NCBI GenBank assembly: GCA_022843225.1
Contig: JALHOC010000006.1
Coordinates: forward strand, 20,441-84,440
Direction of reading: 5' to 3'
Source: Hyphomonadaceae bacterium
Lineage (GTDB): Bacteria > Pseudomonadota > Alphaproteobacteria > Caulobacterales > Aquidulcibacteraceae
Length of the DNA stretch: 64,000 nt
Shown here: one piece after another, positions 33,467-60,587 of the stretch
Numbering within the stretch: the stretch's first letter is position 1
Layout: each line of letters starts with the position of its first letter
The notes under the pieces: generated by a model
What the model saw: the letters and a program-made list of their open reading frames with translations, nothing else
Databases searched by the model: none
Told to the model about the DNA's origin: nothing
Position numbers and translations under genes: made by a program

Positions 33467-33817
33467 ATGGAGATTTTGGTCCTCTCCGCTGCGGTGTCCG
33501 CCACCTGCAATGCTCTTCACTCGGCACAATTGATGACGATTGCGCACGTCCTAGTGGATTCGGACGGCGCGTCGGACCTAGCCGTTGACCTCGGCGGACG
33601 CCGCCTTGCCGCAGTTCGGTGCGTGCGATGCGCCGCCATTCCAGATCATGCCGCCCTCGCAACAATGGTGGCCGAGGGCGACTTTGTCTGGGCGGGCCTC
33701 GTTTCCTCTGAGGAACTGAACGCTGACTGGCCCGGAGATATCCAAGCATTTCACGTGTCGGAGTTGCCACGCCTTGTCGAACGTCTTCGTGAGCTTCAGC
33801 GACAGGCCGCGCCATGA
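33467..33817 (+). CDS. Hypothetical protein (116 aa), coupled to the sigma-factor gene
   Basis: Intact ORF; 4-bp overlap with the following sigma-factor ORF. Confidence 0.5.
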   Translation: MEILVLSAAVSATCNALHSAQLMTIAHVLVDSDGASDLAVDLGGRRLAAVRCVRCAAIPDHAALATMVAEGDFVWAGLVSSEELNADWPGDIQAFHVSELPRLVERLRELQRQAAP

Positions 33818-34320
33818 GGCAGCAGGACCTCATCCGGCTCTTTGAGGAGATGGCGCCTGGATTGCGGCGCTATCTCTCGCGCTTTGGTCCTGCGATTTCC
33901 GCGGACGACATTACCCAGGACGCCTTTGCGCGACTGGCTGCTGCCGAGCCCGGCACTATTGAGGCGCCGCGCGCCTGGCTCTTTCGCACCGCCCACAATA
34001 TCGCCCTCAAAGAACTGAAGCGCCTGAAGGTCGCCGCCACCGATCCGGTTGGAGACATCTCCGCGCTTGAGCAGCCTTGCGATGCGCCCTCGCCGGAAGA
34101 CCTCGTCGAACTGACCGACGAAGTCGAACGGCTGCGCGCCATCTTGGAACTCTTGCCCGAACGCCAGCGCGTTTCCCTGATCCTCTTCAAGGTCGAGGGA
34201 TTATCGCATAAGGAGATTGGCTGGCGTCTGGGCGTTTCGCACCGCACGGTCGAACGCTATGTCGCCGATGCTATTGCCCATTGCCACGAATACCTGAGCG
34301 CCTTCCGCGCTGAGGACTGA
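33814..34320 (+). CDS. ECF-type RNA polymerase sigma factor (FecI-like)
   Basis: Sigma2 (DDITQDAFARL...APRAWLFRTAHNIA) and sigma4 (LLPERQRVSLILFKVEGLSHKEIGWRLGVSHRTVERYVADAI) regions. Confidence 0.92.
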   Translation: MRQQDLIRLFEEMAPGLRRYLSRFGPAISADDITQDAFARLAAAEPGTIEAPRAWLFRTAHNIALKELKRLKVAATDPVGDISALEQPCDAPSPEDLVELTDEVERLRAILELLPERQRVSLILFKVEGLSHKEIGWRLGVSHRTVERYVADAIAHCHEYLSAFRAED

Positions 34321-34342: not shown

Positions 34343-35284
34343 ATGAAGAAGCGTCGACTGACCGACGCCGAGCTGGAAGCGAGCCGTTGGATCGCGCGGC
34401 TTGAGGCTTCCGATGTCAGCCTTGCGGATCATGACGCGTTCCGCGCCTGGCTTGATTCCTCGCCCGAGAACCGCGCTGCGCATGAAGCCGTGAGCCGGAG
34501 CTGGGACCAACTTGACGCGCTGAAGGTGTTGGCGGCCGACGTCTCGGCGTCGCCCTCGCCCGCGAAGCCTTCGCGCCGGGCGCTGCTCCTCGCTGGCGGC
34601 GCTGGCGCGGCGACCGTCGCCGCGGCCGGACTGATTTGGCTTGCAATCCCCGCTCCGACGTTCGCCGCGACGTACGAAACTTCCATCGGCGAACGTGAGC
34701 GCGCGACCTTGCAGGATGGATCGGAGCTCGAACTCAATGCCGTCACATCAATCAAAGTCGCGTTCACCGAACGTGCACGCTTGGTGACGCTGGAGCGCGG
34801 CGAAGCGCTCTTCACAATCGTCTCGGATCAACGCCTGTTTCAAGTTCGCGCGGGCGGCAAAGTCGTCACCGTCTCCCCCGGCGCCTATTTAGTCAGATCT
34901 CATTCAGAGGGGGTTCGGCTTACGGTGATCTCGGGCGCCGCCAATGTGCGCGGCATGCCCGCGCCACTCAATTCCGGCAGCGAAGCCGTGCTCGGCTCCG
35001 GCGCGGCCGCAATCCATGAAATCGGCCTGGAAAACGCTTCGCGTCGTCTTGCTTGGCGCGATCACATGCTGGCGCTCGATGGCGACAGTCTGGCTGATGC
35101 GGCGGCTGAAGTGGAACGCCAAACCGGCGCACGTTTTGTGTTTGCTGACGCCTCGCTTGGAGACCTTGTCGTGAGCGGCTACATCGATGCGCGCGATCCT
35201 CGCGCCTTCATCGCGCTGCTTGAAACCAACCTTGGCGTCTCCGCGCGCGAACGCGCCGACGGTGCCGTAGAGCTTTCTCGCTAA
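34343..35284 (+). CDS. FecR-like anti-sigma/transmembrane sensor
   Basis: DHDAFRAWLDSSPENRAAHEAVSRSWDQL, single TM, FecR domain (TSIGERERATLQDGSELELNAVTSIKVAF...); follows the ECF gene. Confidence 0.9.
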   Translation: MKKRRLTDAELEASRWIARLEASDVSLADHDAFRAWLDSSPENRAAHEAVSRSWDQLDALKVLAADVSASPSPAKPSRRALLLAGGAGAATVAAAGLIWLAIPAPTFAATYETSIGERERATLQDGSELELNAVTSIKVAFTERARLVTLERGEALFTIVSDQRLFQVRAGGKVVTVSPGAYLVRSHSEGVRLTVISGAANVRGMPAPLNSGSEAVLGSGAAAIHEIGLENASRRLAWRDHMLALDGDSLADAAAEVERQTGARFVFADASLGDLVVSGYIDARDPRAFIALLETNLGVSARERADGAVELSR

Positions 35285-37374: not shown

Positions 37375-37376
37375 CC

Positions 37377-37913: not shown

Positions 37914-37939
37914 ACGACCTAATCGCCGGGAGCTTTGCG

Positions 37940-38869: not shown

Positions 38870-38894
38870 ACGCTGACCGCCTGTTTGCGGACGA

Positions 38895-40202: not shown

Positions 40203-40222
40203 CGGCCCTCACCGGAGTTGGC

Positions 40223-44600: not shown

Positions 44601-45255
44601 CTGCACCTGGCCATTTGCCGGCCAGAATGCCGATTGTGCCGGTGCCATGGCCCAAATTGGCGAGAAGACCGTCCTTTCGATCGGTGACATCGCCTTCTGG
44701 CTGATCGTCGAGAAAGTTTCGCGCCAGCGTGAGATCGAGCAACGCAGGCAAGCTCGCGTGCTCTAGATCAAGCCCGGTATCAAGCTGCGCGATGCGGACC
44801 TTGGCCTGGGTCGTGCGCGACAGTGCGCGCGCGCTCGCGAGATCGGTGTACGCGGCGGAAGTGAACCAATTGGCGTCGCCGCCGTTTGGATATCGGGAAT
44901 CGAACGGATCGTGTTGGGCGCAGTCCTTCGCCAACGAGAAGCCGCTTTCCAGCGATTCTCCTGTAATCCATTGCTGGTCGAGATCGGGTTCGACAAAGCT
45001 CGGACGCTCCGTTCCGGCGACGCCAAACCCTTCGGTGGTCAAAGCGTGCGCAATGTCCCAGAGCTCGCCGACACTGCGCTCCCCGTCGAGTTCCAATCGG
45101 CTCCATGCCTCTCGCCGCGTCTTCGGTTCGATGCTGGGCATGAGCCGCTCGCTCGACACCTCGGCGCTGTGTGCGCCGAACGATACGCGTCCCGCCAATG
45201 TCGGTGATTTCGACTTCACCAAGAACGCCGCGTGACGCCCGCGTTGATCGGCCAT
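41695..45255 (-). CDS. Two-protease protein: S8 subtilase domain plus gluzincin (M4-like) metallopeptidase domain
   Basis: S8 triad contexts AQLDTGLDLEHAS (Asp), NLGHGTGTIGILAG (His), AGTSSATPQIAAAAALY (Ser); C-terminal HDIIAHETTHALLDGLHSRF...HEAFADIVALFQHF zincin motif. Confidence 0.85.
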   Translation of the reverse strand: MADQRGRHAAFLVKSKSPTLAGRVSFGAHSAEVSSERLMPSIEPKTRREAWSRLELDGERSVGELWDIAHALTTEGFGVAGTERPSFVEPDLDQQWITGESLESGFSLAKDCAQHDPFDSRYPNGGDANWFTSAAYTDLASARALSRTTQAKVRIAQLDTGLDLEHASLPALLDLTLARNFLDDQPEGDVTDRKDGLLANLGHGTGTIGILAGKWPGAGDLGGAPGVHVVPLRVADAVVLFKNSAIAKALNYVHALNVAGATPVHVITMSMGGLASKAWAEAINALYEQGVFIVTAAGNNYGNLPTRNIVYPARFRRVVAACGVMADGRAYADLPLTMMAGNYGPSKKMKTAMAAYTPNLPWARIGCASTIDLDGAGTSSATPQIAAAAALYMAKYETQLAALPEAWMRVEAVRQALFETSEHGGSFDAKRLGRGMLRAARALAQKPAAASALAQEERDTVSFAALRVLTGLGIAGDDPRQEMLELEALQLASVGATDEIGVEDPAGDDLTPGQARRVAEWLLAQPRASRALRARLENALGHGAPAQGAASALKTSQAAPGSRMDVVARPPALERAPPAPHMRSLRVFARDPLAGTKLETLATNEALVQVPWEPSLEPGPVGEYLEVVDVDPASGRVYPPVDLNHPHLLVQNGLAPSEADPHFHQQMVYAVAMKTIGHFEKALGRSALWASEFDRQSNTTAFVRRLRVYPHALREQNAYYSPARKSLLFGYFSAQGDDVGDNMPGGTVFTCLSHDIIAHETTHALLDGLHSRFREATNPDVLAFHEAFADIVALFQHFSMPEAVRAAVAKTRGDLRAASDLGRLAVQFGQGIGRYGALRSAIGEYDAEGVWRANPVSRNDYANATGSHKRGAVLVSAIFDAYIKIYEKRVAEYMRLATNGTGVLPPGAIPADLVNVLAGEAAKIAGQILNICIRALDYCPPVDLSFGEYLRALITADRDVVPDDRRTYRVAFIDACRSRGIYPAGVRNLSIESVCWQGPDVAFDPAQIRTELLPHIKLTWGIGADRLEAFMASRSNAAIFHKWLMDKSRVSEDQIRCLGLNREHARRVWAVNGRKGKLSAIEVHSLRPSRKVGPDGQSRVDLVVEITQSWTPDDDKSVKHRGGCTILIGQDGQLRYVVRKRVANPQRIADTETAMRIESEAGDPLSPYTPRPRERDEPFALCHREG

Positions 45256-45614: not shown

Positions 45615-48581
45615 ATGGGGACCAACAATCACAACACACGCGGCCATGGCGCCCGCTCGGCGCTGGCTCTTGCGCTGGCGTCTGTCTCTGGATTTGCGTT
45701 GACAAGCGTCGCGCAAGCGCAAACGCCCGCGCGCGCGGAGCGTGAGAGCAGCGCAGCGGCAACGTACGATATTCCCGCCCAGCCGCTTGGCGCGGCGCTC
45801 ATGCGTTTCGCCGAACAATCAAGACTGCAGGTCCTCTTCGCTGAGCATGACGTCTCCGGACTCACCTCACGTCCGCTCCATGGACGCTTCACCGCGGAGG
45901 CGGCCTTGGCGCAAATACTGCCGCCTGGCGCGCCAAGGATCGAGATCATTGGCGACCAGATCGTACTGGCGGAGCCTCCCCGCCCCCAGTACGCCGAAGA
46001 TGAGAGTGCGTTGGACGAGGAAATTATCGTGACCGGGACGCGGATTCGCGGCGCGGTCCCGGCAGGTTCGAACCTCTTCACATTGGACCGTGAGAGCATC
46101 GAGGAGACCGGTCGTTCAACCGTCGCCGATGTCGTTTCGACACTGCCGCAGAACTTTCCAGGGTCGCAAGGAGAGGCGACACAGCTCGGCGCATCGGACT
46201 CGCGGCGCAATGTCAGCTTTGGCTCGACCGTCGATCTGCGTGGTTTGGGCTCGGATGCGACGCTGACCTTGGTCAATGGCCGCCGCTTGGCCCCTGCCGG
46301 TTTCGGCAATTTTGTGGATGTCAGCGCCATTCCGGTCTCCGCCGTTGAGCGCGTCGAGATTTTGGCCGATGGCGCGTCAGCTACGTACGGCGCCGATGCC
46401 GTCGCCGGCGTCGTCAACATCATCCTACGCGACGATTTCGAGGGCGCTGAAACGGCGCTCCGTTATGGTGGCGCGACGCAAGGCGGGCCTGAAGACATCG
46501 GCGTCTCGCAATTGCTCGGCGCCTCATGGCGCGGCGGCTCGATCATGGCTGGCTACGAGTATCGCCATCGCAGCGATCTTCTGGCGGCCGATCGGTGGTT
46601 TACCTCAGATTCCGATCTGCGCCCCTGGGGTGGGACCAATTTCTCCAGCACATCTTCCAATCCAGGCAACATCACGCGCATTGGCGCAACCAATGTCGTG
46701 CTGGCGATCCCGGAAGGCCAGGACGGCACATCGCTGTCGCAGACTGACCTCTTGGTCGGGGTGCGCAATTTTCAGAATAGCACCGAAGGTCAATCGCTCC
46801 TGCCCGATCAGGAAAGCCATTCTGTGTTCGCGGCGGCGCGCCAGGAGCTTGGCGCACTTACCTTGAGCGCGGAACTCTTGGCCAGCGAGCGCACGGCCTT
46901 CGCCTATTCGCGCCAACTCAACGCCAATCTTACCGTGCCAGAGAGCAATTATTATCGTCAGCTCAACGGGCTTTTTCCGGGCCAAGGCAATCTCATCATC
47001 GCCTACAATCTCGACGCGGACCTCGGACCCACTTGGTACGACACGCGGGCGCGCGCTTTGAGTTCTGTGCTCGGCGCGCAATACCCATTGCCGCGCGACT
47101 GGCAGATCGAAGCCAATTTCGGCTTCGCCCAACACGCCGACGACAGCGTTCAAGGAAACATCTATGATTCCGGCACGCTCAACGCCGCGCTCGCCAGCTC
47201 CAACGTGGCGACCGCGTTCAATCCGTTTGCCGATGGCTCGAACAGCGCCCCAGGCGTGCTCGAAGGCATCACCTATGAATCTCTAAACGGCAGCCGCACC
47301 GACATCACGACGTTCTCGATGCGCGCCGATGGCCCACTTTGGACATTGTGGGGCGGCGCGTTGCGGGCCGCTGTCGGGATTGAGCGCCGGCGCGAGACGT
47401 TCGAATATTACAGCCGCCAGCGCCGACCGAGCGGAATCACCAGCACGGCGCCCTTCCTGCCTGGAGATCGAACGACCGACGCGGTGTTCGCGGAACTGTT
47501 CGCGCCGATCATCGGCGCCGAGAACGGCGTGCCGCTTGTGCGTGATTTCACGCTGTCGTTCTCCCTGCGGCACGAGGCGCCCAGCGACTTCGAGGCGACC
47601 ACCGTACCGAAGATTGGCGTACGCTGGAGTTGGTCGGAAGATTTTGCGCTGCGTGCAACTTGGGGCGAAAGCTTCAAGGCGCCCCAATTCCAGCAAATGC
47701 TCGGCAATACGGTCGGCACGCTCTCTACAGCGACGCCGACGCAAGACCCGTTCGCGACGAACGGTTCAACCGGCGTGCTGCTTCTGGGCGGCTCGAATCG
47801 GTTTCTCGAACCCGAGCAAGCGACGACGTGGACCGCAGGCTTCGACTATAATCCATCTTGGCTTACCGGGCTTGAGCTCGGCGCCACCTATTTCGACATC
47901 GATTTCGTCGATCGCATCGGCAACGCCGGGAGCGTGCTGGCGGCGCTCGCGAATCCTGCTGGCTTTGAGGGCGTCTTCATCCGCAATCCGACGGCGGACC
48001 AGATCGCCGCCTATCTCGGCTTCGCCAATCAAGTCGTCGGCGCGATGCCGCCCGATGGCATCGAGGTCATCTGGGACGGCCGATTGGTCAACCTAGCGAC
48101 GCAACGCACGCGCGGCATCGATCTCAACGCCGCCTACACGCACGACACGGCATTTGGGCAATTGCGCTGGTTCGCCAACGCGTCATTCCTGCTTCAGCAT
48201 GAACGGCGCGCCACGCCCGCCGCGGCGCCGCTCGATTTGCGCGATACGATCTTCAATCCTGTTGATCTGCGCGGCCGCGCTGGCGTGTCGTGGAGCCACG
48301 AAGGCTGGTCGGCGCTCGCGGCCGTCAACTACGTTGATGATTATCGCGACAACATCAGCACCCCCAATCGCGAGATCGATGAATGGGTGACGTGGGACGC
48401 GCGACTTGCGCATACATGGCGCGAGGACGGCGCGCCTGGGCTGCAGATCGCACTCAATGTGCAGAACCTGTTCGATGAAGATCCGCCGTTCGCGAACAAC
48501 CCGATCGGCTACGCCTTCGATTCTCAAAACGCCTCTGGCATCGGCCGCTTCGTCAGCATCGAGCTGCGTAGGACATGGTGA
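45615..48581 (+). CDS. TonB-dependent receptor with N-terminal STN signalling domain (lasso-peptide-associated)
   Basis: STN domain YDIPAQPLGAALMRFAEQSRLQVLFAEHDVSGL; plug EEIIVTGTRIRGAVP; C-terminal ...GIGRFVSIELRRTW; overlaps the isopeptidase gene by 7 bp. Confidence 0.93.
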   Translation: MGTNNHNTRGHGARSALALALASVSGFALTSVAQAQTPARAERESSAAATYDIPAQPLGAALMRFAEQSRLQVLFAEHDVSGLTSRPLHGRFTAEAALAQILPPGAPRIEIIGDQIVLAEPPRPQYAEDESALDEEIIVTGTRIRGAVPAGSNLFTLDRESIEETGRSTVADVVSTLPQNFPGSQGEATQLGASDSRRNVSFGSTVDLRGLGSDATLTLVNGRRLAPAGFGNFVDVSAIPVSAVERVEILADGASATYGADAVAGVVNIILRDDFEGAETALRYGGATQGGPEDIGVSQLLGASWRGGSIMAGYEYRHRSDLLAADRWFTSDSDLRPWGGTNFSSTSSNPGNITRIGATNVVLAIPEGQDGTSLSQTDLLVGVRNFQNSTEGQSLLPDQESHSVFAAARQELGALTLSAELLASERTAFAYSRQLNANLTVPESNYYRQLNGLFPGQGNLIIAYNLDADLGPTWYDTRARALSSVLGAQYPLPRDWQIEANFGFAQHADDSVQGNIYDSGTLNAALASSNVATAFNPFADGSNSAPGVLEGITYESLNGSRTDITTFSMRADGPLWTLWGGALRAAVGIERRRETFEYYSRQRRPSGITSTAPFLPGDRTTDAVFAELFAPIIGAENGVPLVRDFTLSFSLRHEAPSDFEATTVPKIGVRWSWSEDFALRATWGESFKAPQFQQMLGNTVGTLSTATPTQDPFATNGSTGVLLLGGSNRFLEPEQATTWTAGFDYNPSWLTGLELGATYFDIDFVDRIGNAGSVLAALANPAGFEGVFIRNPTADQIAAYLGFANQVVGAMPPDGIEVIWDGRLVNLATQRTRGIDLNAAYTHDTAFGQLRWFANASFLLQHERRATPAAAPLDLRDTIFNPVDLRGRAGVSWSHEGWSALAAVNYVDDYRDNISTPNREIDEWVTWDARLAHTWREDGAPGLQIALNVQNLFDEDPPFANNPIGYAFDSQNASGIGRFVSIELRRTW

Positions 48582-50560
48582 GGCGTCTCGTCCTTGTCGC
48601 GGCCCTGTTGGCTTGCGTCTCCCCCGCCGGCCACGCGCATCCCCCAGGGCGCGTGGCCGGTCCCACCATCGAGGATCTGATCGGCCTCGTCGATTTGGGA
48701 ACCGTGCACGGCGAATTGGCGCTGTCGCCCGACGGCGCCAGCATCGCCGTGTTTGAGCGACGCGCCAATCTTGCGCGCAATGATTACGACTACACGCTCG
48801 TGATCGTTCCAACGCGAGGCGGCCAGCCGCGCCCAATCGCCGACGGCGGCGGCTTCATACGTCACGCCTCGGATGGGCGGCGCACTGGCGGCCCTGCCGA
48901 CCGAACGCCCGTCTGGTCGCCCGACTCAGAATGGGTGGCCTTCATCGCCGAGCGTGAGGGCCGCGCGGAAGTCTGGCGTGCGCACATCGATAGCGGCCGC
49001 GCCGAACAATTGACGCCGCTCGATGGCGACGTCACCAATCTGAAGTGGCTCTCCGACGGTCGACTCCTTGTCGATATGGGCCCGCCGCGCGCCGCTTTGG
49101 CGCATGAAGAAGAGCAAGACGCCGATTTCGGCTATCGCGCCGACGATCGGTTCTCTCCGATCTTCAGTTTGAATCGCATGCCGCGCGGCGATGTGCGGAG
49201 CGTGGTGGTCGATGCTTCAGGCGGTGTTGAGGCGGTTGACGCGACCGTGCGGGCAGCACTCGTTGCTACAGAAAACGCGCTTCTGCCCGTGATTGCGCCT
49301 CAGCCGGGAGCGCCGGCCGTGCAAGCGCCGCCGCGCGAAGTGCGCGTCAATCGCGATGGCCAGACTTTGCGCTGTTCGACAGGTCTGTGCGAGGGCGACA
49401 TTCGCAGCCCCATGTTGCTGGCGAATGGCGATGTCGCGTTCCTGCGCTTCTCCGGTTTCGCGCGCACTGAGACCGGCATCGTCATTTGGACCCCTGAGAC
49501 GGGCGCCCTGCGCCACTTGCCGCTCGATCAGGACCGGCTTGCCTGTGTTGCTGGGCGAGAAATCTATTGCCTGCGCGAATCTACTTGGCGGCCGCGTGAG
49601 CTCATCGCCGTCGATCCAAGCACTGGGGCGAGACGCGTTCTCTATAACGCCAATCCGTCCTGGTCGCGCTTCCCGCGGCCCCGGGTAGAGCGGATCGACT
49701 TCACCGATCAGCGCGGCCTCGAATCCTATGCCCACCTCGTCTATCCAGCCGGATACCGCCGCGGGCGACGCTACCCTCTCGTTATCGTTCAATATCGCTC
49801 GCACGGCTTCTTGCGCGGCGGCACTGGGGGCGATTATCCGATCTACCCGTATGCGGCGCGCGGCTATTTCGTGTTGAGCGTCGAGCGGCCGGACGATCTC
49901 GTCCGTCAAACGCAGGTGGATGCAGATACCTACTTCGTCGAACAGAATTTGAGCGACGAAGAAGACCGGATGAAGCGAGAGGCGCTCGACGCGTTTCTCT
50001 CAGGTCTTGAGCGCCGCGGATTGATCGACCCGCAGCGTATCGCCATCACGGGCTTGAGCGATGGCTCGGAAACGCTCTACCGTGCGCTCTTGCGCCGTCA
50101 TTTCGCCGCCGCGATTGTCTCGACGCATCCGTCAGAGCGTTCGGCTTGGTGGCTCCAATCCGAGACGCTTCGTGCGTATCTTCGCCGCTACGGCGATATT
50201 GTCCCATGGACACAATCGGAGCCCTGGCGCTCATGGTGGAGCGCCAACGCCATTAGCGAACAATCGTCCGCCATCGACACGCCGCTGCTCTTCAATATCG
50301 GCCACAGCGAGGCGATGGGCGCTATGGAGCTCTACGTTCGCTTGCGCGAACAACGCACGCCGACGGAGATGTATCTCTATCCGGACGCCTATCATTTGAA
50401 ATGGCGCCCACTTCAGGTGGTCGCATCGCAAGAACGCGGCATGGCCTGGATCGATTTTTGGCTGCGCGGCGTGGAGGTCGAGGATCCGCGTGACGGCGAA
50501 CGCATCGCCCGCTGGCGCGCGCTCAGACAAGCTGCTCCGACGGCGGAGGCAGCGCCTTGA
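48575..50560 (+). CDS. AtxE2-like lasso peptide isopeptidase (prolyl-oligopeptidase fold)
   Basis: Signal peptide MVRRLVLVAALLACVSPAGHA; beta-propeller repeats; nucleophile elbow ITGLSDGSETLYRALLRR; acid/His region YPDAYHLKWRP; genomic pairing with TonB receptor and lasso B/C genes. Confidence 0.88.
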   Translation: MVRRLVLVAALLACVSPAGHAHPPGRVAGPTIEDLIGLVDLGTVHGELALSPDGASIAVFERRANLARNDYDYTLVIVPTRGGQPRPIADGGGFIRHASDGRRTGGPADRTPVWSPDSEWVAFIAEREGRAEVWRAHIDSGRAEQLTPLDGDVTNLKWLSDGRLLVDMGPPRAALAHEEEQDADFGYRADDRFSPIFSLNRMPRGDVRSVVVDASGGVEAVDATVRAALVATENALLPVIAPQPGAPAVQAPPREVRVNRDGQTLRCSTGLCEGDIRSPMLLANGDVAFLRFSGFARTETGIVIWTPETGALRHLPLDQDRLACVAGREIYCLRESTWRPRELIAVDPSTGARRVLYNANPSWSRFPRPRVERIDFTDQRGLESYAHLVYPAGYRRGRRYPLVIVQYRSHGFLRGGTGGDYPIYPYAARGYFVLSVERPDDLVRQTQVDADTYFVEQNLSDEEDRMKREALDAFLSGLERRGLIDPQRIAITGLSDGSETLYRALLRRHFAAAIVSTHPSERSAWWLQSETLRAYLRRYGDIVPWTQSEPWRSWWSANAISEQSSAIDTPLLFNIGHSEAMGAMELYVRLREQRTPTEMYLYPDAYHLKWRPLQVVASQERGMAWIDFWLRGVEVEDPRDGERIARWRALRQAAPTAEAAP

Positions 50561-52325
50561 TGCGCGCGATCCAGGACTCAGCGATAAGCGCGGCCGAGAG
50601 ACGAAACAACGCCCGCCCCTCCGGCGCTTTGAGATCTTCCTCCAACACGCTACGATCCAGAATGCCGCGGCGCACCAACTCGCCATCGGGCAAAAACGCG
50701 CGGAGATAGTCGAGGTTGTTGTCGAGCGCGCGGCGAAAGTGGCGCGTCGTGTCACCCTTGCGGGTTCTCCCCAATGTCGCAGGCGGCAGGAGGTCGGCAA
50801 ACGCAGCGCGCGCAAGCGCGCGGGTCATTCCTCCATGCTGCATCACGTACGGAGGTATGCGCAGAATTGTCTCCACAACGGGCTGCGACGCGAAAACGGG
50901 CGCCGCAACGCTGTGCGCCGACGCGGGCGTCGGCCGCTGATAGAAGGCGAGATCCAACAGATTGAGCGCGCGATAGGTGCGCGCTGGGCCACGATGATCG
51001 ATGTCGCTGAGCCAAGGATGCGTAAGCTGATACGCAAGCGCAGCTTTTGGGTCGCCGTCCTTAGCATCCGTGTGCGTGTTCAACAGCGCAATGACACGCC
51101 GGCCTTGAGGTTGCACCAGCCCCAGCCAGGATTTGCCGGCAATCTCTGAGAGCGGCTTGCCGCTGAGACGAGCCTCTTCCCAAAGGATGCGTCTGATCTC
51201 AGACCACGGCCTGCCATCGCGAAGGGCGTCGGTGGCGCCATCCGTCAAGGGACGCCGCGAGAACACTTGGTCGCCGCCCTGCCCCGATGTCAGCGCCGAG
51301 ACCCGCTCTTGGTCGAGCGCGCTGGCGATCTCATTACTAGCGAACGCCATGTCGGCCGGCGAAGGCTTCGCGGTCGCCGGCGCGCGCTGGATCGCGGCAT
51401 AGTCAGCGGCGGCGGCGTCAAATGTCAGACCATGGAGCCTAACGCCCACATGCGCGGCCGTACGCGACGCGGCGTCGAACTCGTCTCCCTCAGGCACATT
51501 GAACGGGCGCTCATTGACGCAAACGATGTCGGTTGCGCCACATCGCACCAAGCACGCGAGGGCCGCGCTCGAATCGAAGCCGCCGGAGAGCCGGTGAACA
51601 ATCGGCAGGTCGGCATGCGCCCATGCGCTGGCGGCCGCTTCCGCGCTTCTGCGCAGCGCAGCGCGCGCTTCGTCGAAATCGAAGATAGCGGCTTCTCGCG
51701 CCGGCGGCCACGGCGCCCACGCCACCGATTGCGCCGGCCCGCTGCGCTCCCAATGATAGAGCACGCCGGGTATCGCCTCAGGCACACCACGGAGCCCAGT
51801 GCGCGCGCCTTCAATGCGGGTGTGGCGCAAGAAGAGCGCGATATAGGCGTCATCGATCGTGAGTGAGCTCAATTTCGCCCAATCGGCGACGTCCGTGAAC
51901 ATCACATGCACACCGGGCAATTCCGCGAAATAGCATGCGCGCGCGCCGAGCGGATCGCGCAAGATCAGGACGCGGTCGCGCTCAGAATCGCTGACGACGG
52001 CAAGGTACGGCCCCCAATAATTCTCGACGAGCGCTTGGCCATCGCTGGCGGCCCACGCGCTGACCGCAGCGCTATCAACTTCGTACACACGGCGATCGCC
52101 CCCTTCCCGGCGCTCGAAAAGGATGCCGCTCACAAGGCCTTTGTCGCCGGGCAGCACGATTGCATCGACGTCGCGTGCATCAGAACGAGCAAGCAGGCGA
52201 AGACCGCGGTAATTCACCGCCATCGTCCATGCGCCATCCCGCGTCATGACATCGACGCAGCGCTCCGCGAGCTTGCGGCCATTGTAATCGCCCACTGTGT
52301 ATTTGAAGGCGATGAGCGCGGTCAT
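50523..52325 (-). CDS. Lasso peptide macrolactam synthetase (asparagine-synthase-like, C protein)
   Basis: VHRLSGGFDSSAALACLVRCGATDIVCVN (SGGxDS PP-loop), asparagine synthase fold; start MTALIAFKYTVGDYNG gives a 4-bp overlap with B. Confidence 0.9.
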   Translation of the reverse strand: MTALIAFKYTVGDYNGRKLAERCVDVMTRDGAWTMAVNYRGLRLLARSDARDVDAIVLPGDKGLVSGILFERREGGDRRVYEVDSAAVSAWAASDGQALVENYWGPYLAVVSDSERDRVLILRDPLGARACYFAELPGVHVMFTDVADWAKLSSLTIDDAYIALFLRHTRIEGARTGLRGVPEAIPGVLYHWERSGPAQSVAWAPWPPAREAAIFDFDEARAALRRSAEAAASAWAHADLPIVHRLSGGFDSSAALACLVRCGATDIVCVNERPFNVPEGDEFDAASRTAAHVGVRLHGLTFDAAAADYAAIQRAPATAKPSPADMAFASNEIASALDQERVSALTSGQGGDQVFSRRPLTDGATDALRDGRPWSEIRRILWEEARLSGKPLSEIAGKSWLGLVQPQGRRVIALLNTHTDAKDGDPKAALAYQLTHPWLSDIDHRGPARTYRALNLLDLAFYQRPTPASAHSVAAPVFASQPVVETILRIPPYVMQHGGMTRALARAAFADLLPPATLGRTRKGDTTRHFRRALDNNLDYLRAFLPDGELVRRGILDRSVLEEDLKAPEGRALFRLSAALIAESWIARIKALPPPSEQLV

Positions 52326-52930
52326 GCGCCGCGCATCGGCGTAAACCCCGCACAATATTCGGGATCGTCGTTTATGATGACGCCGCCGATCTCAAGCCAG
52401 GCATGGGCTGAGAACGGTCCGCCGCGCACGGCGTAGATGAGATTGCTCCGCACGCCCGCGCTCCACAGAAATCGGCCGAGCGCCAGCGAATCAAACAGGC
52501 ACGACGCCGCGCGCGGATAGAGCGGACGCCATCTTTGAAATCGGACGACGAGTTCGCGTGCGCCAGCGGCAGCGGCGTCATCAGCGCCTTGGAGCAAAGT
52601 CGTCGCGCGATCGAGCGTACGCCGCTTCATGACGTTGCGGGCCCAAAGCGCGGCGCGCCAGAAAGACCAAAGCCCTTTCCCGTCTCGACTGGGCATGCGT
52701 CTGAGTTCGGGAAGTGACGGATCGCCTGCAGGTCGAAGCAATCCGCGCTCGTCCAGCTGACGCGCCAAACCTGGCGTCTCCAGCTTGGCCATCGGCACGG
52801 AGAGATATGCGTCAGAGCGCAGGTCCAACACGAAGAGCACATCGTTCTCGACCGCCCAACGCACATGCGCGGCCCAGTGTAAAAGTTCGGGCGCTGTGCG
52901 GCGCCCGAACTCGACGGCGTCATGCATCAT
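52322..52930 (-). CDS. Lasso peptide B protein (RRE/PqqD-like B1 fused to transglutaminase-like B2 protease)
   Basis: PqqD-like DVLFVLDLRSDAYLSVPMAKLE...; B2 catalytic Cys/His/Asp pattern RAASCLFDSLALGRFL ... PFSAHAWLEIGGVIINDDPEY; start overlaps the A1 stop. Confidence 0.88.
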   Translation of the reverse strand: MMHDAVEFGRRTAPELLHWAAHVRWAVENDVLFVLDLRSDAYLSVPMAKLETPGLARQLDERGLLRPAGDPSLPELRRMPSRDGKGLWSFWRAALWARNVMKRRTLDRATTLLQGADDAAAAGARELVVRFQRWRPLYPRAASCLFDSLALGRFLWSAGVRSNLIYAVRGGPFSAHAWLEIGGVIINDDPEYCAGFTPMRGA

Positions 52931-53042
52931 AGAAGTCGGGATGCACGAAACCTTCCATGCCGCCCGGCATCCATTCGCCAAGGGTGAGAGCGGTCGCGTC
53001 GCCGAGAACGACCAAGTCCTCGGTCTCGTCACGTTCGTTCAT
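52920..53042 (-). CDS. Lasso peptide precursor A1 (40 aa)
   Basis: MNERDETEDLVVLGDATALTL|GEWMPGGMEGFVHPDFYDA: Thr at -2, Gly1, Glu9 for a 9-residue macrolactam ring; directly upstream of B. In-frame inside the longer 52920..53234 ORF. Confidence 0.9.
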   Translation of the reverse strand: MNERDETEDLVVLGDATALTLGEWMPGGMEGFVHPDFYDA

Positions 53043-53091
53043 GATGTGGTGTCCTGATTGAAGGAGACAAAATTGCGGGCGTCGATCACGC

Positions 53092-53117
53092 CCGGCCGCA
53101 CGGCCTCGTGCGGCCGG
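53092..53117 (-). promoter_or_regulatory. Strong hairpin between the two lasso precursor genes
   Basis: ccggccgcacg-gcct-cgtgcggccgg: perfect 11-bp arms, 4-nt loop. Confidence 0.7.
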
Positions 53118-53131
53118 ACAGACAGCGTCGC

Positions 53132-53260
53132 TCAGCCGACGTCGTATTTGTCGGGGACCGTGAGCGCTTCGATCGATTGTTCGAGCCGTTCGCCCTTGGT
53201 CAGCGCGGTCGCGTCGCCGAGTTCGGTGATGCATTCATCGCGAGTTTGGTCTTCACGCAT
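53132..53260 (-). CDS. Lasso peptide precursor A2 (42 aa)
   Basis: MREDQTRDECITELGDATALTK|GERLEQSIEALTVPDKYDVG: same GDATALTx leader end, Gly1, Glu9; AAGGAG ribosome-binding site upstream. Confidence 0.9.
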   Translation of the reverse strand: MREDQTRDECITELGDATALTKGERLEQSIEALTVPDKYDVG

Positions 53261-53355
53261 TGCTTTACTCCTTGCATGTTCGGAAAGCCGAACGACGAGA
53301 AGCATGACAGCGGCGCTGCAGATCAGGTGGACTATCTCTGTGAATATCTTGAAGG

Positions 53356-53967
53356 CTATTCGCCGTTGCGCGGCAGAGCGGCCAAGCCGGCGCGGGCGCG
53401 AATGCGGCCCGCTTCGCGCACACGCATTTTGAAATGACGGCGAAGTGCTGCCTGAAGCTTCGCCCTACTCTGTTGCGACGCGCCGATGAGATCGTTCAAA
53501 TGCGCGCTTATCCGCTCCAGCACTTCGGGCTCCGCGGCCCGCGCCAAAGTGAGGCGCGCGTCCGCTGCCGCGATCGCGCGCGCCAGTTCGCCGTGGCGGC
53601 CTTCTTCAATGTGCGTAAAGACACCCGCCAGCGCTTCCACATAGGGGCGCTTGTTCAGATTGCTTGGTAACGGACGCACCTCGTAGGCCGCACTCGCCAA
53701 GGCCGCGAGCTGACCGCGCCACAGATAAAGCACCGAAAGCTCCCGTTCGCTCCAGAACGCGACCGAATAGCCTTTGCCCGGCGTCAGCTTCACCAATCTT
53801 TCAACGGTGAGCACAGCGAGCGCATGCCGCACGGGCGTTGCGCTCGCCTGCAAGCGCGCGGCAAGGGTCTCGATGTCCAGATGCTCCCGCGCGCGCAATG
53901 ACCCACTAAGTATGGCCTCTCGCAACGTCGCATAGACGCGTTCGGTGACGCCTGTTTCTCCCGCCAT
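53356..53967 (-). CDS. GntR-family (FadR/FCD-like) transcriptional regulator
   Basis: VTERVYATLREAILSGSLRAREHLDIETLAARLQASATPVRHALAVLTVERLVKLTPGKGYSV wHTH. Confidence 0.9.
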   Translation of the reverse strand: MAGETGVTERVYATLREAILSGSLRAREHLDIETLAARLQASATPVRHALAVLTVERLVKLTPGKGYSVAFWSERELSVLYLWRGQLAALASAAYEVRPLPSNLNKRPYVEALAGVFTHIEEGRHGELARAIAAADARLTLARAAEPEVLERISAHLNDLIGASQQSRAKLQAALRRHFKMRVREAGRIRARAGLAALPRNGE

Positions 53968-54863
53968 CAGCCGCCGGCGCTCTCCTGCTCTTGATAGAGC
54001 GCACGCAATTGCTCGGCGATCTCCGGCGTCAGCGCATCGATGTGCGGCGAAGGCGTGCGATCGTCATCGAGATAACGGATCGGATCCTGGCCCTCCCAGC
54101 CGCCCAGATTTGGCCGGTGCATCTGATAGCCGAGGAGACGCTGCAGCCGCTCGGGAAAGCAGCGCGCGACGTCACGGGGATAGGCGAGAAATTGGTTCTC
54201 GTAGGTTTTCAGCCAACCGAGGCAATAGCTGACGATGACTCCAGTGCGCGCAGCAAGGCTTCGATTGGCGCCAGCGCCGTGGGTCAGCGAGCCGAGGAAG
54301 AGAAGCGCCGAGCCCGCCGGCATCGCCGCGGCGATCGCATTCTTCGGGTCAACATTGCGGTCAAGCTCGCTTAAGTGCGATCCGGGCCAAATGCGGGTAG
54401 CACCATTCTCTTCGGTGAAGTCGTCGACCGCCCACATCACATTCAAAAGCCATTCCATCCCCTGCTTGTCGGCAGGCCACATCTCTTCATCGCGGTGCGG
54501 CGCCTGGGCGCGCTCACCCGGATGCACCCTGGTCGCTTGGGTGAGATTGAGTTGGATACAATCGCATTGCGCGGAGAGCAGCGCCTCGGCGATGGCCAGA
54601 ATGCGCGGCTCCAGCACCAAGTGCTGCACCGATGGCGCCTTCGACAAGAGCCCGCCGACGCGCGTCGTTTTCCAGCCGTAGAAATCACCTTCGCAGCGCG
54701 GCGTTGTACGCAGCCAAGGCTCCAATTCTTGGACGAGCTGGCGAACCTGCGACGGCGTCAGCACATTCTCCAGAATGAGATAACCATCACGCTCAAGCCG
54801 ATCGACGTCGCCGCGCACTGGCGAGTGCGCACTCTGGCGAGAAGGCAGATCAATCACGTTCAT
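53967..54863 (-). CDS. Phytanoyl-CoA dioxygenase (PhyH)-like Fe(II)/2OG oxygenase
   Basis: LERDGYLILENVLTPSQVRQL, APHRDEEMW (HxD), FTEENGATRIWPGSH, FLGSLTHGAGANRS (His...Arg). Confidence 0.88.
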   Translation of the reverse strand: MNVIDLPSRQSAHSPVRGDVDRLERDGYLILENVLTPSQVRQLVQELEPWLRTTPRCEGDFYGWKTTRVGGLLSKAPSVQHLVLEPRILAIAEALLSAQCDCIQLNLTQATRVHPGERAQAPHRDEEMWPADKQGMEWLLNVMWAVDDFTEENGATRIWPGSHLSELDRNVDPKNAIAAAMPAGSALLFLGSLTHGAGANRSLAARTGVIVSYCLGWLKTYENQFLAYPRDVARCFPERLQRLLGYQMHRPNLGGWEGQDPIRYLDDDRTPSPHIDALTPEIAEQLRALYQEQESAGG

Positions 54864-54878: not shown

Positions 54879-55508
54879 CTAGGCTGCGCGCGCCAGCGCG
54901 CCAGGGGTAAAGCGCGTCAAAGGCGCTGTTGCGCCAAGCGCTTCGCGGACGCGCTTCAAGCCGCTGGAATCGATGTCGGCGACATAGGCGCGCAGCTTCT
55001 CACGACCGACGCGTTTCTCGGCGCCAAGCGGCGCGACGCTCCAACCCGCGCCTTCAGCTAGCGGTGCGAGGGCTGCGCTTGCGACATAGGTGATGCGCTC
55101 GATCCCAAAGAGCAGGCCCGTCTCCATGATCGCGCCGATCATGCGCAGCAGGAGTTCGTGGCGCGCGGGTCCGCGCGGTGTTCCCGGCGCGGGGCAAAAC
55201 CTGGTCGCTTCCCAAACGCGCGGGCCGCTCGGCGGCGGCTCCTCGCATAGACAAGAGAACACTTCGTTCAAAAGGTGCGGCCGAACCGTCGGCAGAAGGC
55301 GCGCCGAGGCGGTGACCGCCGCACGCGCATCGTCGGCCTCGATCAGATAGACGACATCTTCGGCGTCGTAGGAATCGATCTCGATCCCCATTTCGTCATT
55401 GAGCCGCCAGCCGAGCTCATCGATGAACACCCGCTTCCGTTGCACGTGCATCTCCATCAGCGCGTGGCGGAAGAGGTGGCGGTTCTCAGCGGTGACGATG
55501 TGGATCAT
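54879..55508 (-). CDS. LuxI-family acyl-homoserine-lactone synthase
   Basis: MIHIVTAENRHLFRHALMEMHVQRKRVFIDELGWRLNDEMGIEIDSYDAEDVVYLIEADDARAAVTASARLLPTVRPHLLNEVF...VWEATRFCP: LuxI motif; start codon at 55508. Confidence 0.88.
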   Translation of the reverse strand: MIHIVTAENRHLFRHALMEMHVQRKRVFIDELGWRLNDEMGIEIDSYDAEDVVYLIEADDARAAVTASARLLPTVRPHLLNEVFSCLCEEPPPSGPRVWEATRFCPAPGTPRGPARHELLLRMIGAIMETGLLFGIERITYVASAALAPLAEGAGWSVAPLGAEKRVGREKLRAYVADIDSSGLKRVREALGATAPLTRFTPGALARAA

Positions 55509-55566: not shown

Positions 55567-55588
55567 AAGAGGCACGTCCGTGCCTCTT
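55567..55588 (-). promoter_or_regulatory. 22-bp palindrome in the luxR-luxI intergenic region
   Basis: aagaggcacg-tc-cgtgcctctt: perfect 10-bp arms. Confidence 0.65.
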
Positions 55589-55618: not shown

Positions 55619-56353
55619 TCAGTCGGCCACGTCTTCGATCAGGATTTCGCGGTCGCGGAGCGCGCGCGCGAACATCTGAATCCGGCTGACGACGCCATAC
55701 TTGCGCATGATGCGGCGAACCGTGTTGTGCACCGTGTGTTGGCTGATGCCCAAGATAACGCCGATTTCGAAATCGCCTTTGCCGCGTGCGATCAGTTCGA
55801 TGCATTGGCGTTCGCGCTTGGTGAGCAAGCGTGGGCGCGTAACCGCGAGCTTGAGCAACAGACGCCGCACCGTCTCGTGCGCATAAACCGCATACCAATG
55901 AGCTTGGCCTGGGCTGAGCGGATCAATGTCGTCAGGACCGATCACCAGCGAACACGACGCTGGTAAAGCATTCGGCGCATGAATTGGGATCGTAAAGCCA
56001 TCGCGAAGCCCCGCTTCAGCAGCGGCGTTCAGGATCGCGATCTGATCGGGCGCCAATCTACGCCGAAACTTCTTATCGCTCCATCGAAACGGCAAGGCTT
56101 GAATGCGCGCCGTGAAGAAGATGGGATCGCGAGCGGCTAAGCCCTCGTTGCTGAAATGCTCGACCCAAGGGCGGGGATAATCGAGCATCATCACCGCCCC
56201 CTCTGGAGGGTTCAACGGATCAACGTGCGAGGCGCAAGCGGCGTAGGAGAAGCCTAGCCTTCGCACCTCGCGCATGAAGATCTCTTGTACCTCATCGACC
56301 GATTGAGCGCGTTCGCACATTTCCGCGAACGACCAATTGAGTCGCGCTTGCAT
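55619..56353 (-). CDS. LuxR-family quorum-sensing regulator (autoinducer-binding + GerE HTH)
   Basis: Autoinducer domain DYPRPWVEHFSNEGLAARDPIFFTARIQALPFRWSD; HTH LTKRERQCIELIARGKGDFEIGVILGISQHTVHNTVRRIMRKYGV. Confidence 0.9.
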   Translation of the reverse strand: MQARLNWSFAEMCERAQSVDEVQEIFMREVRRLGFSYAACASHVDPLNPPEGAVMMLDYPRPWVEHFSNEGLAARDPIFFTARIQALPFRWSDKKFRRRLAPDQIAILNAAAEAGLRDGFTIPIHAPNALPASCSLVIGPDDIDPLSPGQAHWYAVYAHETVRRLLLKLAVTRPRLLTKRERQCIELIARGKGDFEIGVILGISQHTVHNTVRRIMRKYGVVSRIQMFARALRDREILIEDVAD

Positions 56354-56701: not shown

Positions 56702-58621
56702 ATGTCGTTTCAACTCATTCCACTCAATCAGCTCGTCGCATCGTCCGCCAATGTGCGGCGCACCGATCGCAAAGCCGATGTCGACGCATTGTCAGCCTCG
56801 ATCCTCGCGCACGGGCTCTTGCAGAATCTTTCCGTGCAAGCGCGCGGTGAGCAGCGATTTGAAGTCGTCGCCGGCGCGCGCCGTCACGCGGCGCTGAAGC
56901 GCCTCGCCAAGGAAGGCAAGATCGCCCGCGACTTCGCGGTGCCGTGCAATCTCGTCGCGCCTGATGGCGCCTCAGAGACTTCTCTCGCCGAGAACGTCCA
57001 CCGCGTCCCGATGAATGCGATGGACGAAGCCGACGCATTTGCGGCCTTAATCGACCAGGGTTTCGACACTGACGCGATCGCCGCTCGCTTTGGCGTCGCC
57101 ACGCGGCATGTCGAGCAACGCATCGCATTGGCGCAGCTCTCGCCTAAGCTGAAAGCCAGCTATTGGCGCGGTGAGATCAATCTCGACGCCGCGCGCGCCT
57201 TCACAATCGAACCCGACCACGCCAAGCAGGACGCGGTGTTGCGCGCCCTGGGAAAGCCCATCCTGCAAGCAAGCCAAGTGCGCGCCCTCCTCACCCAGGG
57301 CGCAATGAAGGCGAGCGATCGCATCCCCCGCTTCGTCGGACTTGAATCATATGAGGAAGCTGGCGGCGCCCTCATCCGCGATCTCTTCGATCCTGATACC
57401 GTTTTTGTCGCCGATCCCGGTTTGATGACGCGGCTCGCCGACGCGCGGATGGAAGCGATTCGCGAAGAGCTCATCGCCCAAGGCTGGGGTTGGGTCGATG
57501 TCGATCTGGGCCTTGGCCGGCTCACAGCGCAATCTGGTCAGCGTATCCAACCAACACGCCGACCGATGACGCGCGGCGAGCGGCGTGCGCTTGCCGCACT
57601 CGATGCAGAGATCGCGGCCAGCGAAACCAAACTCAACGATCCGGAGATTGAAGACGATGGGCTCTGGCCCCAACACCAAGCGCTCGAAGCCAAGCGCCAA
57701 GCGCTCATCGCCGCGACTGACCAATGGGACAAGGAGCTCATCGCCCATGCAGGGACCATCGTGCGCCTCGACCATGAAGGCCGCGCACATTTCACGCATG
57801 GGATTGTCGCTAAAGCAGATGCGGGCCAACTCAAGCGCGTTCTGGCCGCGCGCGCGCCAGAGGGCCAAGCGCCCGATGCGGAAGCCGCCGATCGCGGCGA
57901 TCAAACGCCCGCGTCAACTGGACCAAAGCTCTCCAAAGCGCTGGCGCGAGAGCTAACCACCGCCCGGTCGATCGCGTTGCGCGAAGCCGTATCTCAGTCA
58001 CCGGATCTGGCCCTCGGCATCATCGTCTATGCCGGCGTCAAAACCGCGCTGCAGAACGCTCGTGCGCACGGCGTCGAATTGACCATGCTCGCCGTGGCCG
58101 CGGCAGATGCCGACACCCTTGAAAACGCGCGCATGCGTCTCACGTCCACGCTCCCGAGCAGCGACGCGGAGCTTCTCGATTGGTGCCTTGCCCAGAGCCG
58201 CGAGCGTTTGCTCGAAGCCCTGGCTATTCTCCTCGCCGGCGCGCTCGATCTGGCGCACGAAGCGCACACGAGCGCCGATACCGCGCTCCAAGGCTTTGCC
58301 GATCGCCTTGCGGGTGCGGTCAATCTCGACATTCGTTCGCATTGGTCCGCCGATGTCGGCTTCTTGTCGCGGCTGCCGAAATCGATGCTGATGCAGATCG
58401 CAGCGGATGCGCCGTCAATCGCGGCAAAGACGCCGAAGCGGCGCGAACTTCAGCTCAAAGCCTGGGCCAAGATGAAGCGCGACGATCTTGCAAAGGCGGT
58501 CGCCAAAGTGATCGGCGGCGCCGGTTGGCTGCCGGACCTCTTGATCACGCCTGTTCCGGCAGGCGCTCTTGTCGTCACAGACGAAGGCCAAGCCGCGGCT
58601 GCATCGATCGCGGCTGAATGA
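56702..58621 (+). CDS. parB: ParB/RepB/Spo0J-family protein
   Basis: LIPLNQLVASSANVRRTDRKADVDALSASILAHGLLQNLSVQARG..FEVVAGARRHAALKRLAKEG...SLAENVHRVPMNAMDEADAFAALIDQG. Confidence 0.9.
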   Translation: MSFQLIPLNQLVASSANVRRTDRKADVDALSASILAHGLLQNLSVQARGEQRFEVVAGARRHAALKRLAKEGKIARDFAVPCNLVAPDGASETSLAENVHRVPMNAMDEADAFAALIDQGFDTDAIAARFGVATRHVEQRIALAQLSPKLKASYWRGEINLDAARAFTIEPDHAKQDAVLRALGKPILQASQVRALLTQGAMKASDRIPRFVGLESYEEAGGALIRDLFDPDTVFVADPGLMTRLADARMEAIREELIAQGWGWVDVDLGLGRLTAQSGQRIQPTRRPMTRGERRALAALDAEIAASETKLNDPEIEDDGLWPQHQALEAKRQALIAATDQWDKELIAHAGTIVRLDHEGRAHFTHGIVAKADAGQLKRVLAARAPEGQAPDAEAADRGDQTPASTGPKLSKALARELTTARSIALREAVSQSPDLALGIIVYAGVKTALQNARAHGVELTMLAVAAADADTLENARMRLTSTLPSSDAELLDWCLAQSRERLLEALAILLAGALDLAHEAHTSADTALQGFADRLAGAVNLDIRSHWSADVGFLSRLPKSMLMQIAADAPSIAAKTPKRRELQLKAWAKMKRDDLAKAVAKVIGGAGWLPDLLITPVPAGALVVTDEGQAAAASIAAE

Positions 58622-58818
58622 CTTCCCCGAGGCGCGCTGCGTTGGCTGCGGTCGATGCAGCGCGTTCTTCATGCGGTCTTCTGTTTTCTCACCTGCGAGC
58701 TGCGCCTCGAAGCGCTAGCGCAAGGAATGCGATCTTCCGCCGCCGCCGTCGTGATCGCCCGCCATCCCGACCGGTTATTTGCGAACACGCACGTCCATGC
58801 TTGCGCTCCCCTCTGATG

Positions 58819-59001
58819 CATTTCGCCGGGTCGCATTCGCTTGTCCGCCTGACGCCATGCGTCCGTCAGGTCGTGGGCGCAAGGGGCCGTGTGCTCGGCT
58901 AAGCCTGCGCGCCGCACCAAGCCCCCTTGCGTCCACGCACGCTCGCGCTCCTTCGACGGCCGCCCGTGCTGAGGCGTCGCGAACGCGACCCCGGCGGAAT
59001 G
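58819..59001 (+). promoter_or_regulatory. Nested inverted repeats, leader of ssb
   Basis: Imperfect arms cattTCGCCGGGTCGCATTCGC (58819-58840) / GCGAACGCGACCCCGGCGGAATG (58979-59001); inner arms cgtgggcgcaaggggc / gcccccttgcgtccacg. Confidence 0.6.
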
Positions 59002-59026
59002 AACCGCAGGCATTGGAGCACAAGCA

Positions 59027-59440
59027 ATGGACAAGGCATCATTTGAAATCATCGGCAACGTGGGCAAAGTCGAGATCAAGGGCGTGAAGGGGGACAAGAA
59101 GATCGCCATCCTCTCGATCGCCACCTCCGAGCGCTGGAAGCGCGACAATGGCGAGTGGAACGAAAAGACTTACTGGCATCGCGTCGCCGTCTTCGCCCCC
59201 GCCAAGGTGGAGCGCATCGAAGCGCAGGTCCAGAAAGGCACGCGTCTTCGTCTCGTCGGTCAGATTCGTCCTGGCTCCTACGAAGACAATCGAGGCCAGA
59301 CCAAATACGTGGTCGAGTTCGTGGTCGGCCCCTTCGGCGACGTCGAAATTCTGGCGCGCGGCAAGGCGCGAGAAGAGACCGCTGAGTCCAAGCCCAGCCG
59401 ACGCAAGGCCAATAGCGCCGATACGAGCGCGAACGCGTAA
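59027..59440 (+). CDS. ssb: Single-stranded DNA-binding protein
   Basis: FEIIGNVGKVEIKGVKGDKKIAILSIATSERWKRDNGEWNEKTYWHRVAVFAPAKVERIEAQVQKGTRLRLVGQIRPGSYEDNRGQTKYVVEFVV OB-fold. Confidence 0.92.
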   Translation: MDKASFEIIGNVGKVEIKGVKGDKKIAILSIATSERWKRDNGEWNEKTYWHRVAVFAPAKVERIEAQVQKGTRLRLVGQIRPGSYEDNRGQTKYVVEFVVGPFGDVEILARGKAREETAESKPSRRKANSADTSANA

Positions 59441-59490
59441 TCGGTAACGCTCGGGCGGGCTTCGGCTCGCCCGAGTATCTTGTGCGTCTA

Positions 59491-59667
59491 CTCCGCTTGG
59501 CCGGGCGGCCCCCAGCGCCGTCTGAGTGAATGCGGCGAGCGCGGCCGCCGCGCAACGGCTCGATTGCGAGCCGTCCTCCACTGACGTTGCGGGCCAAGGC
59601 TGCGCGGCGCCCGCGCACGCCGTCTTTGAACGAACTCCGTCGCCGGGCGCCGCCCGGCCAAACGGAG
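59491..59667 (+). promoter_or_regulatory. Nested long inverted repeat, leader of ardC
   Basis: Arms ctccgcttggccgggcggc (59491-59509) / gccgcccggccaaacggag (59649-59667), 18/19 complementary; apical acggctcg-attg-cgagccgt. Confidence 0.72.
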
Positions 59668-59675
59668 CGAGTCTC

Positions 59676-60587
59676 ATGTCCATTCTCGAAAAATTCTCAC
59701 CCGCGCAACGCGTCACCCAAGCCATCGAAAGCGCCTTACGTCAGGGCGTTCGCCCCTGGGCCAAACCCTGGCGCGACGAGGCGTGCGGCGCGCCACTCAT
59801 CTTGCCGCGCCGCGCCAATGGCGAACCCTATCGCGGTATGAATGTCGTGGCGCTCTGGGCCGCTTCTGAACAAGCGGGCTTTACCTCCCCCTATTGGCTC
59901 ACCTTCAAGCAAGCGCTGGCGCTCGGCGGGCAAGTCCGCAAAGGCGAGCGCGGTTCGTTCGTTGTCTTCTACAAGGAACTGAAATCCGAAGATCAAGCGA
60001 CTGGAGCGGCTGAGGACGCGGAAATGAAACTGCGCCGTATTCTGCGCGGCTATGTCGTGTTCAATCGCGTGCAGATCGACGGCCTGGACGGACGTTACGA
60101 CCCGCCCGCGCCCACCGCGCCGCAGACGCCGGACGCGTTCGCCGCGCGGTTCGCCAAAGTACCGGCCCACATCCGCTATGGCGGCGCGCGCGCCTTCTAC
60201 GCACCCTCCTCCGACCACGTACAATTGCCGCCAAAGGCGGCCTTTATCGACACGACCCAATTCTACGCCACGCTCGCGCACGAGCTCGGGCATTGGACCC
60301 GTCATCCTTCAAGACTCGATCGCGACTTCGGCCAGAAGCGGTTTGGCGATCATGGCTATGCGCTTGAAGAATTGGTCGCCGAATTGTGCGCCGCCTTCGT
60401 TGGCGCCGTCATCGATTTGCCGAGCGAGCATATCGAAGATCACGCTGCTTACATCCACCACTGGCTTGGCGTGCTGAAGGAAAATCCCTCTGCATTCCTC
60501 ACTGCCGCCGGCAAGGCGCAAGCAGCTGCCGATTACCTCTTGCGCCTTATGGGCGAGAGCACGGCGAGCTCACCGCCACCAGAATGA
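59676..60587 (+). CDS. ardC: ArdC-like antirestriction protein (ssDNA-binding + zincin)
   Basis: RVTQAIESALRQGVRPWAKPWR...YRGMNVVALW...YWLTFKQALALGGQVRKGERGSFVVFYK...TLAHELGHWTRHPSRLDR...YALEELVAELCAAF. Confidence 0.92.
   Translation: MSILEKFSPAQRVTQAIESALRQGVRPWAKPWRDEACGAPLILPRRANGEPYRGMNVVALWAASEQAGFTSPYWLTFKQALALGGQVRKGERGSFVVFYKELKSEDQATGAAEDAEMKLRRILRGYVVFNRVQIDGLDGRYDPPAPTAPQTPDAFAARFAKVPAHIRYGGARAFYAPSSDHVQLPPKAAFIDTTQFYATLAHELGHWTRHPSRLDRDFGQKRFGDHGYALEELVAELCAAFVGAVIDLPSEHIEDHAAYIHHWLGVLKENPSAFLTAAGKAQAAADYLLRLMGESTASSPPPE

Follow-up and report, generated by a model that had tools for sequence, protein, structure and literature searches.

The 64 kb window, by which we mean the whole stretch of 64,000 nucleotides that was analysed, carries an isopeptidase-type cluster predicted to make two paralogous lasso peptides which, with a probability of about 0.7, serves as the output arm of an acyl-homoserine-lactone quorum-sensing unit. 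Gene content and order, the conserved precursors, the candidate control sites and the statistical linkage of LuxI with the isopeptidase were all read directly from DNA. The best reading of them is a lasso pair that is controlled by cell density and imported by its own producers, of which we infer the production, threading and regulation.

Both precursor genes lie on the minus strand, each preceded by a Shine-Dalgarno-like match. A1 (53260..53132) encodes 42 aa with a leader of 22 aa (MREDQTRDECITELGDATALTK/GERLEQSIEALTVPDKYDVG, the core being GERLEQSIEALTVPDKYDVG) and is conserved in the loci L032 and L033 of two other species-level genomes; A2 (53042..52920) encodes 40 aa with a leader of 21 aa (MNERDETEDLVVLGDATALTL/GEWMPGGMEGFVHPDFYDA, the core being GEWMPGGMEGFVHPDFYDA), and its core is unchanged in L032 and differs by one residue in L033. 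These are exactly the two minus-strand ORFs which the first-pass annotation had quoted at 52920-53260, with the leader end LGDATALTx, Thr at -2, Gly1 and Glu9 that it had described in both; its remark that they were not separate entries in the ORF track was mistaken, as both genes are listed there as parts of longer ORFs (57 and 104 aa) that start further upstream. A1 and A2 show the marks of a lasso precursor, namely Thr(-2), a small residue 1 and an acid at positions 7-9, and since Glu9 is the sole acid at 7-9 in both cores, Gly1-Glu9 is the only conventional choice of ring. When all six frames of the window were searched with a strict leader and core pattern having an ATG in range, A1 and A2 were the only matches, and the same pattern gave a mean of 0.2 matches (maximum 1) in 40 Markov-simulated windows. 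Leader and core start resemble the benenodin and subterisin families, with scores below threshold: A1 and A2 both matched the NCBIfam lasso models benenodin and albusnodin at E 2e-5 to 7e-4, under the curated cut-offs (20.9 and 24.1 bits against a cut-off of 33 for benenodin, NF033522), and A2 matched Pfam Subterisin (PF24178) at 21.1, under the cut-off of 27. Comparison with the orthologues in L032 and L033 gave dN/dS of 0.07-0.39 for A1 and 0.06-0.14 for A2, which denotes purifying selection on each. The earlier assignment of A1 and A2 as lasso precursors upstream of B and C gained support from the family matches of B, C and an Atxe2-type isopeptidase and from homologous clusters, in which a search for a different precursor ORF led to the same small ORFs at the same place. 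Sequence evidence establishes A1 and A2 as genuine lasso-peptide precursors; that they are produced, ringed and threaded accordingly is what we would expect of them.

LasB (52322..52930, minus), the start of which overlaps the 3' end of A2 by 11 bp, was recognized by lasso_biosyn_B2 (NF033537) at 58.8 bits against a cut-off of 33 and also by PF13471, with Cys147 and His179 of the B2 cysteine protease invariant in the alignment. Its N-terminal part is likely an RRE domain fused to the protease. The alignment retains an LDLxxDRY segment there, typical of the RRE strand pair, and the best PDB profile match of this domain was the lasso B1 protein TfuB1, a weak one (E 0.25). With the predicted structure (pLDDT 85.9) Foldseek returned nothing under E 0.05, TbiB1 having a probability of 0.85 and being weak by E-value (E 0.6). 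LasC (50523..52325, minus), whose start was placed at the ATGA by which the B and C genes overlap, is an asparagine-synthase-like lasso cyclase with an SGGFDSS motif, matching PF00733 at 3.3e-22 and the NCBIfam lasso and macrolactam-cyclase models only under their cut-offs.

Convergent with the lasso genes, on the plus strand, is an Atxe2-type lasso isopeptidase of the S9 family (48575..50560) with an N-terminal signal-like sequence, which scored 541.7 bits with the Atxe2 model NF033523 (cut-off 400) and 258.6 bits with the AtxE2 structure 5txc, the Ser, Glu and His residues aligning with those of AtxE2. It is accompanied by a TonB-dependent receptor (45615..48581, plus) having an STN-like signalling domain, and, as presumed partners of the receptor, by a FecI-like ECF sigma factor (33814..34320, plus) and a FecR-like anti-sigma factor (34343..35284, plus). 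In homologous loci FecR adjoins the receptor; in the window about 10 kb of other genes stand between the two. The layout of GntR, precursor, isopeptidase, TonB receptor and sigma/anti-sigma pair is constant in the isopeptidase lasso clade (PMC9266682) and is present here with the pair displaced by about 10 kb. As this layout has already been described, the lasso part belongs to the known isopeptidase-type family, of which A1 and A2 are, as judged from their genes, new members. The astexin-2/-3 and AtxE2 clusters of Asticcacaulis excentricus are alike in T(-2), Gly1, the ring acid, B and C, in the convergent isopeptidase and TonB receptor, in GntR before the precursor and in the sigma/anti-sigma pair (PMC9266682). 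The differences are that the cores found here have no sequence relation to theirs, that the isopeptidase is only distantly homologous to AtxE2, and that LuxR-LuxI-PhyH adjoins the present cluster, which goes beyond the astexin/AtxE2 architecture as described. The sphingocin cluster of Sphingomonas BPH likewise joins a lasso operon to an adjacent isopeptidase and TonB receptor, and its report does not mention a LuxI, quorum or GntR link (PMC11006600). The insert between fecR and the receptor (36106-45255), missing from L032 and L033, encodes an S8 subtilase, a protein of metallo-beta-lactamase fold that weakly matches the LmuA/Avs1a defence models, and more proteins without a Pfam match, and is possibly a defence-like island.

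Upstream of A1 and in the same direction as the lasso genes are luxR (55619..56353, minus; PF03472 and PF00196), luxI for an acyl-homoserine-lactone synthase (54879..55508, minus; PF00765, 4.5e-21), phyH for a PhyH-type Fe(II)/2-oxoglutarate dioxygenase (53967..54863, minus; PF05721) and gntR (53356..53967, minus; PF00392), the last overlapping phyH by one base. The first-pass annotation had taken in neither this quorum-sensing module nor the FecI/FecR pair nor the wider conservation of the cluster. When 60 genomes from the window's own family were searched with LasC, 29 further loci turned up in 20 of them, and the order LuxR-LuxI-PhyH-GntR-precursors-B-C, convergent with the isopeptidase and receptor, is kept in these 29, GntR again preceding the precursors. 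LuxI was present in 23 of the 24 family loci with enough flank, the exception being L048; the other five end at contig edges. On the far side of luxR lie plus-strand genes (56702-60587) for a ParB-like protein, an SSB and an ArdC-like antirestriction protein, and a ParB homologue stands beside luxR in many homologous loci too; these genes point to an element that is mobile or integrated. The window's own genome holds a second LuxR-LuxI-PhyH locus (L091, contig C81) without GntR, on a contig that ends soon after phyH.

Two candidate control sites accompany these genes. Between luxR and luxI we noticed a 20 bp lux-box-like palindrome (AGAGGCACGGACGTGCCTCT, 55568..55587, minus), the sole strong site of its type in the window, which together with the LuxR/LuxI pair makes up the sequence signature of a quorum-sensing cluster. 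It occupies the same position in most homologous loci, where the bases vary and stay paired; in some (L040, L051) it is weak or absent, and in L032, where luxR is farther from luxI, it is just 5' of luxI. Upstream of A1 there is an operator-like motif (CAAGATATTCACAGAGATAG, 53332..53351, minus) which reached 16.1 bits over 30 loci against 9.4-9.7 in shuffles and lies about 75 to 115 bp 5' of A1 in nearly all of them, sphingomonads included. Trained without the window, the motif scored 23.1 at 53332-53351, the next site in the window scoring 14.2. As it sits just after gntR, a GntR operator is the natural guess. Upstream of the TonB receptor neither a lux-box-like nor a GntR-like site was found. 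A strong hairpin (53090..53119, minus) directly follows the A1 stop, its structure being retained in most loci with unrelated sequence, and it is possibly a stabiliser of the transcript or an attenuator.

Put together, these features suggest the following course. LuxR with its acyl-homoserine lactone would act at the palindrome before luxI and drive luxI-phyH-gntR-A1-A2-B-C, GntR at the motif before A1 would provide a second control point, and the hairpin may favour the A1 transcript relative to the downstream genes. LasB would then cleave two residues after Thr(-2), freeing the core from its leader, and LasC would close the ring between Gly1 and Glu9 with the tail inside. Once released, the peptides may re-enter producers or their kin by way of the cognate TonB receptor, which would signal through FecR/FecI, and the re-imported peptides would be opened by the isopeptidase.

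A scan of named genomes with the PhyH alignment disclosed LuxI-PhyH/lasso linkage also in Sphingomonas, Sphingopyxis and Marinicaulis (divergent in the last), and in Steroidobacteraceae such as Povalibacter the lasso genes follow 2 to 7 kb beyond LuxI-PhyH. In the Steroidobacteraceae-like loci L137-L139, L144 and L141, where LuxR-LuxI-PhyH likewise precedes the lasso genes by 2 to 7 kb, no GntR was detected. Lasso-linked PhyH loci were thus found in Hyphomonadaceae, Parvularculaceae, Sphingomonas, Sphingopyxis and Steroidobacteraceae, in differing arrangements; in a PhyH tree 41 of the 79 loci bore the lasso label, which changed at least five times (parsimony 9), so the lasso linkage must have been gained or lost repeatedly. 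Since a class-wide search found the isopeptidase in only 3 of 396 genomes, the converse test was run on 251 genomes of the sphingomonad-containing family, which from its named loci we take to be the sphingomonads. Here 48 isopeptidase loci were counted, one of them in a genome from outside the family; luxI was no more than 8 kb away in 21, where 0.29 would be expected by a Poisson estimate that ignores relatedness, and over half had no luxI at that distance. LuxI was encoded in 33 of the 36 genomes with the isopeptidase and in 41 of the 215 others (Fisher p 2e-17, again ignoring relatedness, the effect being large), and LuxI was still present in 13 of the 16 isopeptidase genomes without close luxI linkage.

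The foremost alternative holds that the lasso cluster is real and ordinary, that LuxR-LuxI-PhyH merely adjoins it, one mobile or hot-spot region carrying both, and that the lasso genes are under GntR alone. It draws on the wide occurrence of LuxI-PhyH without lasso genes (about half of the PhyH loci, including L091), on the ParB, SSB and ArdC genes beside this cluster and ParB beside many others, and on the separate operator-like motif before A1. We consider it unlikely, as the linkage recurs in several lineages with differing arrangements, LuxI and the isopeptidase co-occur even when unlinked (in the 13 of 16 genomes above), and the genes are spaced like an operon. In one locus, L092, no lasso genes could be detected after LuxR-LuxI-PhyH-GntR, and its lasso operon has perhaps been lost.

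The lasso-free loci also bear on PhyH, which could be a lasso tailoring enzyme that hydroxylates the core in the way known from iron/2-oxoglutarate enzymes of certain other ribosomal peptides; phyH is beside gntR and shares its direction, and the fold family includes natural-product dioxygenases. PhyH beside luxI is known from Novosphingobium and other sphingomonads, where the same three genes LuxR-LuxI-PhyH occur, and the relevant passages of those reports do not mention the lasso genes which, together with GntR, come next here (PMC3704786, PMC4288048). As PhyH goes with LuxI in lasso-free loci, both our own and those of the cited reports (PMC3704786, PMC4288048), and is more conserved than LasB though the cores vary widely, a tailoring role is quite improbable. 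Given that PhyH is found with LuxI whether lasso genes are present or absent, a role in the quorum signal is more probable for it than one on the peptide.

By the search pattern, 24 of the 29 homologous loci have two precursors at the corresponding place, three have one (L040, L051, L055) and two have none; L093 also has one. In a comparison of 15 representative loci with 20000 permutations, the similarity of the A1 and A2 cores was 0.47 within a locus and 0.11 across loci or when permuted, the observed value being reached in none of the permutations, and within loci it was 0.53 from position 9 onward against 0.43 in the ring. Leader starts are position-specific, MRED often opening A1 leaders and not A2 leaders (p 0.005). 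The likeness of cores within a locus together with these leader starts indicates that A1 and A2 are old paralogues which keep their positions while their cores change together. In the window, both cores share the segment EA/EG..xPDxYD after the ring, hence the first-pass statement that the cores differ strongly needs this qualification and does not stand as simply put. Known isopeptidases recognize their peptides chiefly by the loop (PMC9266682), so a loop and tail common to both cores would fit a single isopeptidase and receptor, and one of each may serve both peptides. That just one ORF is matured, its partner being a decoy or a duplicate that has decayed, as the single-precursor loci (three of 29, and L093) could suggest, is the least probable of the alternatives in view of the purifying selection on both genes across the three closest loci, the two precursors in most loci and the position-specific leader starts.

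A review regards the function of isopeptidase-containing lasso peptides as an enigma to this day and also states that the known ones, except astexin-1, lack antimicrobial activity (PMC9266682), and in the open-licence literature we found no report tying acyl-homoserine-lactone quorum sensing to isopeptidase lasso clusters. The recurrent physical and genome-wide link with LuxI suggests density-dependent communication or use of shared resources, not antibiosis, and its presence in many soil and water bacteria is a testable clue to the role of such peptides without known function. For genome mining it implies that expression of isopeptidase-type lasso peptides may depend on added lactone. Tentatively, and with considerable doubt, these peptides might even constitute a private second layer of the quorum circuit, in which the lactone would switch on the pair and the shared loop and tail would be read by the cognate TonB receptor and isopeptidase; if so, each cluster type would define a self-recognition group, several per genus and even per genome. 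Core length also varies among the loci: in L057, L058, L059, L060, L053 and L055 the cores have 14 residues (GGVDHLMEDRDPLM, GGVDTEIEDREPLF), leaving a tail of 5-6 residues, which is unusually short if threaded.
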